From NCBI RefSeq assembly GCF_029633965.1, contig NZ_CP091277.1:2167940-2231939 (forward strand): DNA of 64,000 bases. Reading direction: 5' to 3'. Each line of letters opens with the position of its first letter. Position 1 is the stretch's first letter. The notes under the pieces are model-generated. The model was not told where the DNA came from, ran no database searches, and saw nothing but the letters and a program-made list of their open reading frames with translations. Origin of the DNA: Methanogenium sp. S4BF (GTDB lineage Archaea > Halobacteriota > Methanomicrobia > Methanomicrobiales > Methanomicrobiaceae). Made by a program: the position numbers and the translations under genes. Below, piece after piece: positions 23,604 to 29,910 of the stretch.

Positions 23604-24008
23604 ATGGTACAACTGACCGATGACCTGATCGAGGCGTTCAATGCACTACGCATCATTCCTCTTGCAACCGCAGACAAAGATGGCGTTCCCAATGTCGCAC
23701 CCATGGGTGCAAAGGCACTTGCTGACCCGGAGACGATTCTTGTGATGGACAATTTCATGCAGAAGACGGTGGCAAATATCCGTGAAAATCCAAAGGCTGC
23801 CATTTATCTCTGGGGAGAAGGCGTGAAGGGCTGTTTCCAGATTCACGGCGATGTTACGTATGTAAATGAGGGTGAGCAGTTTGAGGCGTTTCGCAGTGAG
23901 ACTCTTGCCCGGATGCCGAACGTGCCGGCAAAAGGGATGCTTGTCATTAAAATTACTGATGTCTTCACCTGTGCAGCAGGGCCCGGCGCCGGTAATAAGA
24001 TCATCTGA
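23604..24008 (+). CDS. Pyridoxamine 5'-phosphate oxidase-fold flavin protein
   Basis: A 134-residue split-barrel protein. LIPLATADKDGVPNVAPMG-like sequence (here LRIIPLATADKDGVPNVAPM) is the hallmark first hairpin of the PNPOx/FMN-binding family, and FMQKTVANIRENPKAAIYLW and GCFQIHGDVTYVNEGEQFE follow in the expected order. Archaeal members of this size bind FMN or F420 and reduce small molecules; the reaction here is unknown. The ATG at 23604 has GGAG seven bases upstream; an earlier in-frame ATG at 23547 would add residues of no family match. It may be related to the neighbouring TetR locus but its own promoter is separate. Confidence 0.8.
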   Translation: MVQLTDDLIEAFNALRIIPLATADKDGVPNVAPMGAKALADPETILVMDNFMQKTVANIRENPKAAIYLWGEGVKGCFQIHGDVTYVNEGEQFEAFRSETLARMPNVPAKGMLVIKITDVFTCAAGPGAGNKII

Positions 24009-24130
24009 AACCGGCGAATTTCCCGTAAAATCTTTTTTTGCGCAGCAGAATGCACTTTCCGTATGAATGGCGGTCGTTCCCTTTCAGGGCCGGGTATGTG
24101 GGGATGGGTGAAAGAAATGGGTTGTGTGTT

Positions 24131-24436
24131 TCAGGTGCCTGCATGAATGCGGTGCAGAATTTCGACGAGCATCTGCACGTCACGTGGGGGTTCATAACCG
24201 GCCTCGTCCCAGAGTGCTGCGGTCTCCAAAGGCTGGCCGGATGTTTTCATGAGGGTGTCTGCCCTGTCTCCCGTGTATTCCCGGATGATCTCTGCTGTCA
24301 GACGGACTGCGATCATCTCATCCGGCTCATCCGGGGGAGAATTCCCGGATACACGGGCTGCCGCACGGAACCGTTTCGGATTCGTGATGCGGTATCCTGT
24401 GGATTCTGTGCTATTTGTAAATGACGTTTGTGTCAT
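24131..24436 (-). CDS. Small protein divergent from TetR, unknown function
   Basis: A 101-residue hydrophilic protein from ATG 24436. I do not recognise it. The N-terminal third is rich in Ser/Thr/Asn, the middle has PPDEPDEMIAVRLTAEIIREYTG, and the end ALWDEAGYEPPRDVQMLVEILHRI looks like an amphipathic helix. The ATG lies inside the first TGAC-N6-GTCA operator and about 22-30 bases from the TATATTTAT box read on this strand, so a leaderless transcript is expected. The shared operators suggest control by the divergent TetR. Codon pattern resembles its neighbours, which supports a real gene, but evidence is mostly positional. Confidence 0.5.
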   Translation of the reverse strand: MTQTSFTNSTESTGYRITNPKRFRAAARVSGNSPPDEPDEMIAVRLTAEIIREYTGDRADTLMKTSGQPLETAALWDEAGYEPPRDVQMLVEILHRIHAGT

Positions 24437-24487
24437 TATATTGACATTGGCGTCACCTATATTTATCAATTACTGACGTGAGTGTCA
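24422..24487. promoter_or_regulatory. TetR promoter with three TGAC-N6-GTCA operators
   Basis: Three inverted repeats with half-site TGAC and a six-base spacer: 24422-24435, 24442-24455 and 24474-24487. Their centres are 20 and 32 bases apart. TATATTTAT (24458-24466) lies between the second and third, so bound repressor would block TBP. The region serves the TetR gene on the plus strand and the small gene on the minus strand. Confidence 0.8.
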
Positions 24488-24522
24488 TTTATTTGGGTGG
24501 ACGACATATCTGTTCATATACT

Positions 24523-25122
24523 ATGCCACGTGTTGCTCCCGGATATAAAGAGGATGTACGCCGCCGCATTATGAGGGCGGCACTGGAAGAAGTCAATGCC
24601 TGTGGCCTGCAGGCGCTTCGAATGGAGGATGTGGCTGCACGCGTTGGTATCTCCCGTGCTGCGCTCTATAATTATTTCAGTGACAAAGAAGCCCTTCTTG
24701 GCGCAATTATTCATGAGATGCAGGAAGAAGGGATGTCTGTTCTTGAGGACACCTTCCAGGAGAAATCTTTTAAGGACGCCCTCTCCTTTATCTTTGAACT
24801 GATGGTCCTCTCCGCACAGGAGATGCCCGGGGTTGAAGCCGAACTCTTCAGCATCGCCTCCCGTACTCCGAAGATTCAGTGTTTAATGCATTCTACCTTT
24901 GAAGACGGACTTCTGAAACTCTCCGGACTTATTGAGGAAGGACAGAAGGGCGGGGAGATTGTATCTGCCGGTGATCCCCGCTGTCTTGCTGAGATCGTGA
25001 TGTACACGCTCGGGGGGCTGAAGCATGCGATCATCTTTGGATCTGATACCGCTGTTCTGAAGACGCGCTGGAATGCCATGACGGAGCTGCTTTTTTTTAC
25101 CGAAGAAAAACCGGGCGACTGA
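24523..25122 (+). CDS. TetR/AcrR family transcriptional regulator
   Basis: A 199-residue repressor. The N-terminal helix-turn-helix is clear: RRRIMRAALEEVNACGLQALRMEDVAARVGISRAALYNYF with the usual YNYFSDKEALL end of the domain. The ligand-binding C-terminal half is helical and not assignable. I take ATG 24523 (MPRVAPGY) as start; the frame is open back to a GTG at 24478 inside an operator, which is unlikely. The gene has its own operator array and is followed by pyrimidine-rich terminator sequence. A matching operator array lies 1,216 bases downstream, so it probably regulates more than itself. Confidence 0.88.
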   Translation: MPRVAPGYKEDVRRRIMRAALEEVNACGLQALRMEDVAARVGISRAALYNYFSDKEALLGAIIHEMQEEGMSVLEDTFQEKSFKDALSFIFELMVLSAQEMPGVEAELFSIASRTPKIQCLMHSTFEDGLLKLSGLIEEGQKGGEIVSAGDPRCLAEIVMYTLGGLKHAIIFGSDTAVLKTRWNAMTELLFFTEEKPGD

Positions 25123-25124
25123 AA

Positions 25125-25171
25125 GGTTTTTCCCTCTCTGTTTCCCTCTCCTTTTCCCCTCTCTTTTTTTC
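25125..25171 (+). terminator. Pyrimidine-rich terminator after tetR
   Basis: Directly after the TetR stop codon comes a long C/T tract with several runs of four to seven T, the usual form of an archaeal intrinsic terminator. From 25172 to 25637 I see no convincing gene: short open frames exist on the plus strand (25225-25515, 25301-25588) but have no domain or ribosome site. Confidence 0.6.
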
Positions 25172-25637
25172 ATCAGCCTTTTTCCTGCAAATTCTGATTT
25201 GTATCCATCTTTTCCGCATGTAATGTGCCGTTGTTGTACCCTGTATACTATTCGGGGGAAGTAATTCTGCACAAAAGGGGGAAATACTCAAAAATGGTGA
25301 ATGAGCATCCCGGACGTGAAAGCAACCGGGGGATTTATGGGACTGGTGAGACTCATCATGTACCGGTATGGAACGATGGAGATTTTTTCTCCATTCTGTT
25401 TATGGCGTCTGGAGGTTCATACGCGGGGATTCCGGGCAGCAGGGATCGTTTCTGTGATATGTGTGTGGTTAGGGGATTACAGAAAAGACCCGGATATTAT
25501 TCTCATTCAGAATAATGTGCCGCCTGATATAATCCGGCTTCTGTGGTCTGTAGGTTGGTGGTTTTGTGTTTACAGGCGTGTTCCCTGAAACAGTCTGATT
25601 GGTTGCTCATCCCGATATTCCGGGTGCCATTCATTGA

Positions 25638-25703
25638 TGACAATTATGTCACCAATATGACATCTGCGTCATTTATATTTATTTTTTACTGACACTCGTG
25701 TCA
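25638..25703. promoter_or_regulatory. Second TGAC-N6-GTCA operator array with TATA box
   Basis: Three sites at 25638-25651, 25658-25671 and 25690-25703, centres 20 and 32 bases apart, with TATATTTAT at 25674-25682. Every element is offset by exactly 1,216 bases from the array before the TetR gene, while the spacers differ. No gene starts in the right place on the plus strand: the first ATG frames are 6 and 12 codons long, and from 25836 the opposite strand codes for LarE. On the minus strand a 43-codon frame (25634-25503) is open but unremarkable. Confidence 0.8.
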
Positions 25704-25835
25704 TCGTCTTGTTTGTCTCTTCCCCGGATGCATCCCACGTCCCGATGAGGCTGTACGTGGCAGTAATGACATGTGCTCCATGACAGGGGAGCGCTGACTC
25801 CTAAAAATTGGATTATTTCAGGGAATTATCCTATT

Positions 25836-26630
25836 TCAGTCCATGCTGCCACTTTTAAATCCATCCAGATCAAGTGTCACATGTCGAAATCCCAGGGTAT
25901 GGAATGCCCTGCTGATGGCGTCCCGGAGAACAAAGATCCGTTCTGCGGATTCGGGATCAGTCTCGATACGTGCCACATCGGCGTGGACCCGGACCCGCAC
26001 CTGCCGGGCCCCGGCAGCAACGATCACCTCTTCTGCCCGGGAGATGCGGGCGAGAAGCTGTGGGTCAAGACACTCGCCATAGGTGATTCGTGTGGCGAGG
26101 CAGGACGCAGATGGCTTTGCATATTCCGGTATCGAATGCATCTTTGCGATGGCCCGGATGTCATCTTTGGTAATACCTGCCTCGACAAAGGGGTGAGTAA
26201 TGCCCGCCGCAAGGCCGGTCTGGTAGCCGGGGCGGTATCCGGCGATGTCATCGGCATTCGTCCCGTCTGCGATGGATGCAAATGCATGTTCATCCGCTAC
26301 CTCACGGAGGATCCGGGCACTCTCCTGTTTGCACACAGCGCACCGGTTCTTTGGGTTCATCCTGAATTCGGGTTTTTCCAGGATAGCTGACTCCCTGACA
26401 AAGAGCTGCAGTTCTTCCCGTGCGGCGATGGCACGGGCAGCTTTTTCCTCACGCAAAGGGAGAAGAGGACTCACTATCAGACAGCAGGCAGCATTGTTGC
26501 CCAGAACATCACGTGCGACAACGGCGAGAACAGTGCTGTCGATGCCGCCTGAGTATGATACCAGCAGTGATTTTTTGTCCCTGATTGCCGCCCGCAGGTG
26601 AGTGTAGCGTTCCTGTCGTCGTTCTGTCAT
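25836..26630 (-). CDS. larE: ATP-dependent sacrificial sulfur transferase LarE family
   Basis: A 264-residue PP-loop protein. The ATP site SGGIDST is at residues 27-33. LarE adenylates a substrate carboxylate (the nickel-pincer precursor in lactate racemase maturation) and gives up sulfur. The protein has the sacrificial-type cysteine in KPSASCLATR (Cys177) and also the pair CAVC (Cys97, Cys100), making the three-cysteine form that binds an iron-sulfur cluster in other LarE proteins rather than losing its own cysteine sulfur. No larB, larC or larA is near, so the target pathway in this organism is open. It ends just after the orphan operator array. Confidence 0.88.
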   Translation of the reverse strand: MTERRQERYTHLRAAIRDKKSLLVSYSGGIDSTVLAVVARDVLGNNAACCLIVSPLLPLREEKAARAIAAREELQLFVRESAILEKPEFRMNPKNRCAVCKQESARILREVADEHAFASIADGTNADDIAGYRPGYQTGLAAGITHPFVEAGITKDDIRAIAKMHSIPEYAKPSASCLATRITYGECLDPQLLARISRAEEVIVAAGARQVRVRVHADVARIETDPESAERIFVLRDAISRAFHTLGFRHVTLDLDGFKSGSMD

Positions 26631-26881
26631 GGCGTTCCTATCCCCCGGTTTGCCCGGATGGTATGGTAGTCTTTGTCCCTGTCCAGATAAAACCTGCCGC
26701 AGACTCCTTCAGGAGTGATCCGGCAGTGGTATTTTTCTCTGATGTATTCGGCTGAAGTATTCTGATCTTATCTCATTCATACCCATACTGTCGGAAAAAT
26801 TCAGAAATTATTTGAAAGGACAAATGTACTTAACAAATAAATAGAAATAGGTTGATTCCACAGATTTATGTCCGTTTTGAG

Positions 26882-26888
26882 TATAAAG
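26882..26888 (+). promoter_or_regulatory. wtpA TATA box
   Basis: TATAAAG, 34 bases before the wtpA ATG, predicting a leader of about 12-15 bases. The upstream 200 bases (26631-26881) are AT-rich without a clear palindrome for a molybdate/tungstate regulator. Confidence 0.55.
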
Positions 26889-26921
26889 AGTTAAACATTT
26901 CTGAATAAAATCTGTTATGTG

Positions 26922-27989
26922 ATGAAAAAGAATCTGGTAATTCTCATGGCAGTCGCAGTGGTGTGTGCGACTGTGTTCATCTGTGGCTGTACGGGAAGTG
27001 GTGAAACACCCGCAGCTGATCAGACACCTGTGCCGACCGCAGCAGCGGAAGAAAAAATAGTCCTGACAGTCTACCAGGCTGGCAGCCTTACCAGTCCGAT
27101 GGAGGAGATGGAGGCTGCATTTGAGGCAGAACACCAGAACGTAGATGTCCAGCTTCATCCGGCGGGCAGTACTGCACTGGCAAAGGAGATAACCGAGCTC
27201 GGTGCAGTTGCTGATGTCTATGCATCCGCTGACTATTCACTGATCCCTGGCCTTTTGATCCCTGACTATGCATCATGGTACGTGACCTTTGCAAAGAACC
27301 AGATGGTACTCTGCTACACGGACAAGAGTATGTTTGCAGATGAAGTGACCGCAGACAACTGGTACGAGATCCTTGGTCGTGACGAAGTCACCTGGGGCTT
27401 TTCCGACCCGAATCTCGACCCCTGCGGCTACCGGTCCCTCATGGTGATTGCACTCGCTGAGTTCAATTACAATGACGAGATGATCTTTGACAATCTCGTT
27501 GGCCAGTACTCACAGATCTACCCGACTGTTGCAGACGGTGTTGTCACCATTCATGCCAACGAAACCGCAGCTGTCTACCCGGTCACGATTACCCCCAAGA
27601 GTGTGGAGTTAATCGCCGGTCTTGAGTCCGGAAACCTGGACTATGCATGGGAGTACCGCAGTGTGGCTGAACAGAATGCGGCATCCGGTGTCAAATACAT
27701 CGAAATGCCTGAAGCGATCGATCTTTCTGCCATCGCATACAAGGATATCTATGCAAAGGTGCTGATTGACACCGCGGGCGGCATGATGAAGGGCAAACCG
27801 ATTGTCTATGGTGTCACGGTCCCGAAGACCGCAGATGACCCCGGGATGGGTGTAGAGTTTGTGTCCATGCTTATCGGTCCGACCGGTCAGCAGATCATGG
27901 CAGATGCAGGTCAGCCGCCAATCAATCCTCCGGTCGGGTTTGTTGACATTCCCGCAGCACTGGAGAGCATGGTTGAGCTGAGTGTCTGA
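26922..27989 (+). CDS. wtpA: Tungstate/molybdate-binding lipoprotein WtpA
   Basis: The oxyanion-binding protein of the archaeal tungstate/molybdate ABC importer, 355 residues. It has a lipoprotein signal ending in ICGC (lipidated Cys at residue 23), a Thr/Pro-rich linker, and then the WtpA ligand region LTVYQAGSLTSPMEEMEAAF, with AGS as oxyanion contact, HPAGSTALAKEI, and the conserved DVYASADYSLIP and FSDPNLDPCGYRS segments. Length is typical. ATG 26922 is taken; the preceding GTG would only add one residue. Tungsten or molybdenum is needed by formylmethanofuran dehydrogenase, the enzyme feeding ftr. A T7 run lies between this gene and wtpB. Confidence 0.94.
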   Translation: MKKNLVILMAVAVVCATVFICGCTGSGETPAADQTPVPTAAAEEKIVLTVYQAGSLTSPMEEMEAAFEAEHQNVDVQLHPAGSTALAKEITELGAVADVYASADYSLIPGLLIPDYASWYVTFAKNQMVLCYTDKSMFADEVTADNWYEILGRDEVTWGFSDPNLDPCGYRSLMVIALAEFNYNDEMIFDNLVGQYSQIYPTVADGVVTIHANETAAVYPVTITPKSVELIAGLESGNLDYAWEYRSVAEQNAASGVKYIEMPEAIDLSAIAYKDIYAKVLIDTAGGMMKGKPIVYGVTVPKTADDPGMGVEFVSMLIGPTGQQIMADAGQPPINPPVGFVDIPAALESMVELSV

Positions 27990-28022
27990 ATATCTCCCCT
28001 TTTTTTATTCCGGAGCAGATGA

Positions 28023-28835
28023 ATGAAGAAGCCAGCTACGTTTCCTGATTCCTGTCTGCTGTCGTTTGCCCTGATTGGCAGCATGATTGTAATCCTGACC
28101 GTCATGGGCCTTCTCACGATTACCCTCGGTCAGGTCACGGATCTTCCGTACTTCATCTCCGTTGCAACGGAGTCAAAGGTCGTGGATGCCATCCTGCTGA
28201 CGATGGCAGCAGGCCTGAATGCTGTGATTCTGCTCCTTATCTTTGGTATTCCCCTCGCCTATATTCTGGCACGGACGGATTTCAGGGGAAAAGGGCTGGT
28301 GGAGAGCATCGTTGACATCCCGGTGATGCTGCCGCATACTATTGCGGGCATCATGGTCTATATTCTCTTTATGCGCCGGGGAATTATTGGGGAACCGTTC
28401 TCACAGATAGGCATCATCTTTGAGAATGCGTACCCCGGAATTGTTGCGGCGATGTTCTTTGTCTCCTCCCCGTATTTTGTAAACGCAGTGCGTGACGGGT
28501 TCGAGAAGGTTCCGGTGCATCTGGAGAATGCGGCCCGGACTCTGGGAGCGTCGCGGTTTCAGGCCTTTCGTCTGGTTGTGCTGCCGCTTTCCCTGCGGCA
28601 TATCTTCAGTGGCAGCATTCTCGCTTGGGGGCGCAGTATCGGTGAATTTGCGGCAATCATCATGATCGCCTACTATCCAATGGTCATATCGACACTGATC
28701 TACTACAAGTTCACCACCGCAGGGCTCAAAGAGAGTACAGCGGTGGCATTTGCAATGATTCTGGTCTGTCTTGTGGTCTTTGCCATTCTGCGTGGTTTGA
28801 TGAAGAGGGTGGGGGTATACGATGATAGAGTTTGA
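28023..28835 (+). CDS. wtpB: Tungstate/molybdate ABC permease WtpB
   Basis: A 270-residue permease of the molybdate/tungstate importer with about six spans. The EAA-type coupling loop reads VHLENAARTLGASRFQAFRLVVLPLSLRHI with the conserved glycine, and GIPLAYILARTDFRGKGLVESIVDIPVMLPHTIAG is the usual substrate-path region. GGAG about nine bases upstream supports the ATG at 28023. It overlaps wtpC by 14 bases, indicating coupled translation. Confidence 0.93.
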   Translation: MKKPATFPDSCLLSFALIGSMIVILTVMGLLTITLGQVTDLPYFISVATESKVVDAILLTMAAGLNAVILLLIFGIPLAYILARTDFRGKGLVESIVDIPVMLPHTIAGIMVYILFMRRGIIGEPFSQIGIIFENAYPGIVAAMFFVSSPYFVNAVRDGFEKVPVHLENAARTLGASRFQAFRLVVLPLSLRHIFSGSILAWGRSIGEFAAIIMIAYYPMVISTLIYYKFTTAGLKESTAVAFAMILVCLVVFAILRGLMKRVGVYDDRV

Positions 28836-29910
28836 GAATGTCTCGGTGACACTGGGTGATTTTCGGCTGAATGAAGTGAGCATCAGGGTAGAAAGCGGTG
28901 ATTATTACTTCATCATCGGTCCGTCGGGTGCGGGAAAGACTATCATCCTTGAGGCGATGGCAGGTCTTCACCACCCGAATTCCGGGAGGGTGCTCATCGA
29001 TGGGGAGGATGTAAGCAGGGTGCCTCCTGAGAAACGAAAGGTTGCGCTGGTCTATCAGGATTATTCCCTCTTCCCGCATATGACGGTCTATGACAACATC
29101 GCTTTCGGGCTAAAGCTGCAGAAACTGCCGAAAGCAGAGGTTGAGAGGCGTGTTGTTGCGGTTATCAGCCGGTTTGGCATTGCGCATCTCAGGAACCGTG
29201 CCCCGTATACGATGAGCGGGGGCGAACAGCAGCGGGTGGCCCTCGCCCGTGCTCTGGTGACAGAACCGGATATCCTGCTGCTTGATGAACCGCTCTCTGC
29301 GATGGATCAGGTAAACCGGGACAAGTTTGTCGCAGATTTGCGTGCCATTCACAAGGAACACAACCTTACCATTGTGCATGTCACCCATTCCCGTGAGGAG
29401 GCTCTCTCGCTTGCCACCCGGGTGGCGGTCATCATTGACGGTACCCTGGAGCAGGAGGGTGAGCGTGATGAGGTCTTCCGAAAGCCTCCGAACCGGAGAG
29501 TCGGCAGGTTTGTGGGCATTGAAAATGTCTTTGAAGGCATGGTGGCAGGCACCGGTGCCGGGGGTTCTGTGATCCGGATTGATGGATGCAGTATCAGGAC
29601 CACGGATCCGGTGCCTGAAGGATGCCGGGTCTGTGTCTTTATCCGGGCCGCTGATGTGGCGGTACGGCGTGCGGGAATACCCGCGGATGACGAATACAAT
29701 TGTTTCCCGGCAACGGTCGAGGAGATAATTCCCCGTGAATCCTATTATCTGCTGAAAATAGCGTGTGGCATCAGCCTGTACTCGCTTGCCTCAGAACAGG
29801 AGATCAAAGAAAAAGACCTCGCACCGGGGCAGGCTGTTTCGGTTTCGTTCAGTCCTGCATCGGTTCATGTTACGCGGGATGAGGTGCAATCCCCTCTCCT
29901 GGATCTCTGA
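28822..29910 (+). CDS. wtpC: Tungstate/molybdate ABC transporter ATPase WtpC
   Basis: A 362-residue ATPase of the importer. Walker A GPSGAGKT, Q-loop VYQDYSLFPHMTVYDNI, signature MSGGEQQR, Walker B ILLLDEPLSAMD and switch VTHSREEAL are all present in residues 30-200. The last ~130 residues form a TOBE/MOP-type regulatory region, which in this family can bind the oxyanion and inhibit transport (trans-inhibition); that function is known of the family, not shown here. Terminated by a T-rich run after the stop. Confidence 0.94.
   Translation: MIEFENVSVTLGDFRLNEVSIRVESGDYYFIIGPSGAGKTIILEAMAGLHHPNSGRVLIDGEDVSRVPPEKRKVALVYQDYSLFPHMTVYDNIAFGLKLQKLPKAEVERRVVAVISRFGIAHLRNRAPYTMSGGEQQRVALARALVTEPDILLLDEPLSAMDQVNRDKFVADLRAIHKEHNLTIVHVTHSREEALSLATRVAVIIDGTLEQEGERDEVFRKPPNRRVGRFVGIENVFEGMVAGTGAGGSVIRIDGCSIRTTDPVPEGCRVCVFIRAADVAVRRAGIPADDEYNCFPATVEEIIPRESYYLLKIACGISLYSLASEQEIKEKDLAPGQAVSVSFSPASVHVTRDEVQSPLLDL

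Follow-up and report, generated by a model that had tools for sequence, protein, structure and literature searches.

Why does a Methanogenium genome carry two operator arrays of identical geometry beside one TetR-family gene, when only one of them faces recognisable genes? We investigated this in a window of 64,000 nucleotides, which is the whole stretch of DNA that was analysed. The sequence TGAC-N6-GTCA occurred exactly six times in the window, and all six copies belonged to the two arrays; shuffled windows gave a mean of 1.2 copies and a maximum of 4. The operators of array 1 were located at 24422..24435 (TGACGTTTGTGTCA), 24442..24455 (TGACATTGGCGTCA), and 24474..24487 (TGACGTGAGTGTCA), and those of array 2 at 25638..25651 (TGACAATTATGTCA), 25658..25671 (TGACATCTGCGTCA), and 25690..25703 (TGACACTCGTGTCA). 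The distances from centre to centre were 20 and then 32 bp in both arrays, each of which is 66 bp long. Operators 2 and 3 of array 1 are separated by an 18-bp spacer that holds a TATA-like element, TATATTTAT, at 24458..24466, and the same element lay at the matching position, 25674..25682, in array 2. It begins 9.5 bases past the second centre in both cases; the orientation assigned to the array 1 element is ambiguous. All elements were shifted by 1,216 bp between the arrays in this genome. A first-pass annotation of this DNA had described the six palindromes, their spacing, the offset of TATATTTAT, and the shift, and every one of these was exact. An 81-bp repeat with 70% identity was also picked up independently.

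Genome-wide counts were obtained by pattern searches. With 87 of them per strand, single TGAC-N6-GTCA palindromes are common across the genome and mean little. When up to two mismatches were allowed, the 66-bp geometry was matched at two places in the genome, and a reversed control gave 0 matches. The scan for 20/32 triples that the first-pass annotation had proposed therefore returned the two arrays only, and the same spacing was found at no unrelated locus. Pattern searching of this genome found no pairs of exact sites 2-30 bp apart outside the arrays, and chance triples of any one fixed geometry are expected about 1e-7 times per genome. A chance origin of the arrays was rejected on the basis of the window shuffles, the empty reversed control, and the lack of other close exact pairs. 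A search of the genome for a wider regulon with the pattern TGACRYNNRYGTCA gave only two further single sites, close to the control count, and no arrays. A literature search for TGACACNNGTGTCA gave no match.

Array 1 lies between two divergent genes. To its right is a gene for a TetR-family regulator of 199 aa (24523..25122, forward strand), and to its left is a small gene of 101 aa (24131..24436, reverse strand), which the first-pass annotation had passed over. The TetR protein scored 48.9 bits with Pfam TetR_N (PF00440; cut-off 24), and its profile matched solved TetR structures over about 150 residues. An AlphaFold2 model was all-helical, with 10 helices and a pLDDT of 86, in agreement with the TetR fold of a helix-turn-helix and a C-terminal ligand domain. 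With the AcrR equivalog model of NCBIfam (NF007949), the protein reached 39 bits, below the cut-off of 271.

The comparison with related genomes suggested by the first-pass annotation included M. marinum (G003), M. cariaci (G001), and Methanogenium sp. CSMAG_280. Five Methanogenium genomes, this one included, have an orthologue of the TetR gene, and in each of them array 1 with the 20/32 geometry was present upstream of it; no array was found in G004 and G005, the Methanogenium genomes without the orthologue. Among the 28 genomes of the family that were searched, the geometry was confined to Methanogenium. Wherever array 1 was found (five genomes), the ATG of the small gene adjoins operator 1, even in M. 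cariaci with its fragmentary copy, and in the window operator 1 abuts and overlaps this start codon. Operator 1 therefore doubles as the first codons of the small gene. In the four species other than M. cariaci, the gene was intact, with 67-70% identity. In M. cariaci (L038), the TetR gene, the small gene, larE, and the wtp genes were split into several frames; this assembly, with 59% completeness, is likely of low quality.

We found that all 24 fixed operator bases were invariant across eight arrays from five species, while the inner bases and spacers were on average 54-76% identical and the flanks also varied. These results bear out the functional constraint that had been proposed from the window.

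The small protein resembled a helical stretch of about 90 residues of the anaerobic CO dehydrogenase CooS, with about 29-34% identity. The match had an E value of 2e-9 in one genome and recurred in many, and PDB 6t7j was matched with an E value of 0.13. A Foldseek search of the small-protein model against the PDB gave no significant match, and CODH/ACS appeared as a weak match over 30 residues. The link to CooS thus comes from sequence, by which the small protein is apparently a free-standing piece of enzyme beside a regulator. About 3.5 kb to the left of the window lies a paralogous pair of divergent genes (L072:3769-4746), one for a TetR with an SKG helix and one for an 86-aa protein related to the small protein. 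The pair adjoins a CODH-like gene (L072:833-2920), and no TGAC arrays were found at it.

The first-pass annotation had named the TetR protein as the ligand of the arrays. Relatives of this TetR with about 32% identity, from another genus of the family and from two other families of the order, were also preceded by three TGAC-N6-GTCA-like sites. In these sets, 7 or 8 of the 8 fixed bases were kept per site, and the spacing was 20/34 or 21/50. The recognition helix GISR[AT]xLY was present in every parsed protein of a three-site set, and TetR relatives with SKG or TKG helices had no three-site set. Since the three-site sets track the TetR subfamily with the GISR[AT]xLY helix, the TetR protein is the likely ligand of the arrays, as the earlier proposal had it. 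That the palindromes bind some regulator other than the adjacent TetR is very improbable, because the sites follow the subfamily and its helix across genera and are missing from the two Methanogenium genomes that lack the orthologue.

RND exporters are a usual target of local TetR repressors. In all six three-site loci that were read out (L055-L060), the TetR gene and a large gene, of about 750-800 aa, were divergently oriented. The large genes that were tested encode an MMPL/HAE3 RND exporter (486 bits with NCBIfam, cut-off 352). A relative of the small protein precedes the large gene in at least four of the six loci. The small-protein gene partly overlaps the HAE3 exporter gene in places among these loci, in several genera. 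No RND pump was found beside array 1 in Methanogenium, whose locus looks like a reduced version with the pump gone.

These loci also bear on the spacing, which had been read from the window as about two and three helical turns. The step from site 1 to site 2 was held at 20-21 bp, and this part of the proposal stood. The step from operator 2 to operator 3 was 32, 34, or 50 bp by clade; the step of 32 bp belongs to Methanogenium alone, and strict 20/32 spacing was rejected as a general rule since the relatives use 20/34 or 21/50. In the 21/50 clade, the TATA box, TATATAA, ends 6 bp before operator 3, and operator 3 starts 19 bp before the TetR ATG. The only distances that appear to be held across clades are that between sites 1 and 2, about two turns, and that between the TATA element and site 3.

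We propose that three TetR dimers would occupy the three 14-bp palindromes around one promoter region, which would serve tetR rightward and the small gene leftward. TetR would repress its own gene and its neighbour until released by some ligand. Operator 3 occupies the stretch from the TATA box to the predicted TetR start and may block the TetR side; the other side would be blocked by operators 2 and 1, of which operator 1 lies over the start of the divergent gene. The centre of the array 1 TATA element, 24462, is equally far, 26 bp, from the ATG of the small gene and from the base that follows operator 3, 24488. Judged against the usual archaeal distance from TATA box to start, this fits a shared TATA box, from which the leftward message would be near-leaderless and the rightward one would start just past operator 3.

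Array 2 has no such neighbours. No recognisable gene leaves it on either side, a point that the first-pass annotation had missed; the leftward frames are broken and unshared between species, and to its right lies the 3' end of the convergent larE. The interval 25836-29910 holds larE (LarE sulfur transferase, 260 bits) followed by the wtpABC tungstate transporter genes on the other strand, an order conserved in the genus. Array 2 was present in three of the five genomes with array 1, at distances of 1216, 1252, and 1277 bp from it. It was absent from M. marinum and M. cariaci. By array 1 sequence, M. marinum is the nearest relative of the genome G006, which has array 2, and array 2 has therefore been dispensable at least once.

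We next considered how array 2 is related to array 1. In the window, a decayed start of the small gene was found over array 2 on the reverse strand (about 25605..25652), in which the ATG has become GTG and a stop stands at codon 3. The 24 bp to the left of array 2 agreed at 18 of 24 positions with the flank of array 1 in M. marinum. The remnant was clearer in G006, where 16 residues of the small protein could be read in register to the left of array 2 (PLNDTQTSGHYINRSK vs LINNTHTTGYLITNPE, p <=5e-5). On the other side, the starts of the tetR genes showed no robust similarity to the right flank of array 2, in which no residue of a second TetR was found; this flank had 27-30% identity, as in background or random sequence. 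Because the likeness runs into the left flank, which the first-pass annotation had overlooked, the arrays are related by descent and were not built independently. As read from these alignments, array 2 is an old paralogous duplicate of the array 1 control region. The first-pass annotation had taken the identical geometry itself as a sign of constraint. Since a decayed copy of the small gene persists beside array 2, the shared geometry was inherited first and conserved second, and the part of the claim that stood is that of functional constraint on the operators.

Within array 2, the operators were identical at 24 of 24 fixed positions in the three species, compared with 20 of 42 for the other positions. 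The chance of 24/24 in array 2 is about 2e-8, a guide only, as the value is a simple product and takes no account of phylogeny or of the loci having been chosen by the motif itself. Operators that are perfect in three species while their flanks are scrambled point to selection. It is unlikely that they were kept alike by recent gene conversion between the arrays, because the array 2 copies were closer to each other (0.62-0.64) than to array 1 of the same genome (0.55). A functionless relic whose operators have survived by luck would agree with the dead gene copy next to array 2 and with its loss from M. marinum, and the operator counts above make such a relic improbable.

What array 2 does was approached through its TATA core and the gap between tetR and array 2. 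The core was kept in all three array 2 copies. The gap (25123-25637) could be aligned in the three species, with Smith-Waterman scores of 72-88 against 34 or less for shuffles, and contained conserved blocks at 25283-25362 with about 50% three-way identity. Both observations would suit a repressed promoter for a functional non-coding RNA or a very short peptide, running leftward into the gap. Against this, the gap has no open frame common to the species, Rfam gave only sub-threshold chance matches on 23900-26700, consensus folding with three sequences was unconvincing, and part of the block also occurs in M. marinum, which does not have array 2. A DNA search of the genus for the gap to the left of array 2 gave no significant match at the corresponding place, at the sensitivity of BLAST. 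We regard such a promoter as a possible but doubtful reading. A role for array 2 as a decoy or an auxiliary operator, in which TetR would loop to array 1 across tetR or be titrated, so that induction is sharpened, is somewhat unlikely. In its favour, the operators are perfect while both sides are geneless and the right flank is random, and the genome has only the two arrays, both at the tetR locus. A decoy would have no need of a TATA core, however, and the distance between the arrays varies among the species, so that there is no fixed phase between them. We also know of no established case of looping by a TetR-family protein over about 1.2 kb. Taking titration, looping, and a TetR-controlled RNA together, a geneless operator array that was kept by selection after the death of its genes and is regulatory in its own right is a reading which we hold to be plausible rather than probable.

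Overall, we think it probable that array 1 serves the adjacent TetR gene and the small gene as their operator, and that array 2 is an old duplicate kept by selection and likely still bound by TetR. On this reading, the gene copies of the duplicate decayed, and selection spared its operators and, it seems, its TATA core. Bound by TetR, as is most likely, array 2 may control a short untranslated transcript or serve as an extra operator that sets the concentration of free TetR.

AcrR, TtgR, and MtrR are local TetR repressors whose genes are divergent from the RND pump that they control. This gene order was seen in the relatives from other genera; the Methanogenium locus, which lacks the pump, retains just the small gene. 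To our knowledge, TetR operators of archaea have been described in detail in few cases. An archaeal precedent for autoregulation by three dimers is Ss-LrpB of Sulfolobus solfataricus, which binds its own control region cooperatively, as three dimers at three palindromic sites (PMC4046817). Array 1, known from sequence, likewise places three dimer-sized palindromes in the TetR promoter region. Ss-LrpB differs in belonging to the Lrp family and in its site, TTGCAAAATTTGCAA, and the available part of the same report describes no geneless twin array. FadRSa of Sulfolobus acidocaldarius is a TetR-family repressor that binds semi-palindromic sites, one of which precedes the gene for FadRSa itself (PMC6449355). 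Unlike the arrays, it uses one 16-bp motif, with a dimer or a dimer of dimers per operator, and its target is a fatty-acid gene cluster (PMC6449355). MDR1 of Archaeoglobus fulgidus, cited in PMC2995911 as a model for repression in archaea by blocking the binding of RNA polymerase, is a metal-dependent regulator, in contrast to the TetR family here.

The locus offers a testable operator code for methanogens: the sequence of the sites, the recognition helix that goes with it, and three spacings, each specific to a clade. These spacings separate the distances that seem to matter, from site 1 to site 2 and from the TATA element to site 3, from the others. Array 2, in which the genes are dead and the operators alive, is a natural test of selection on operators without a target gene.
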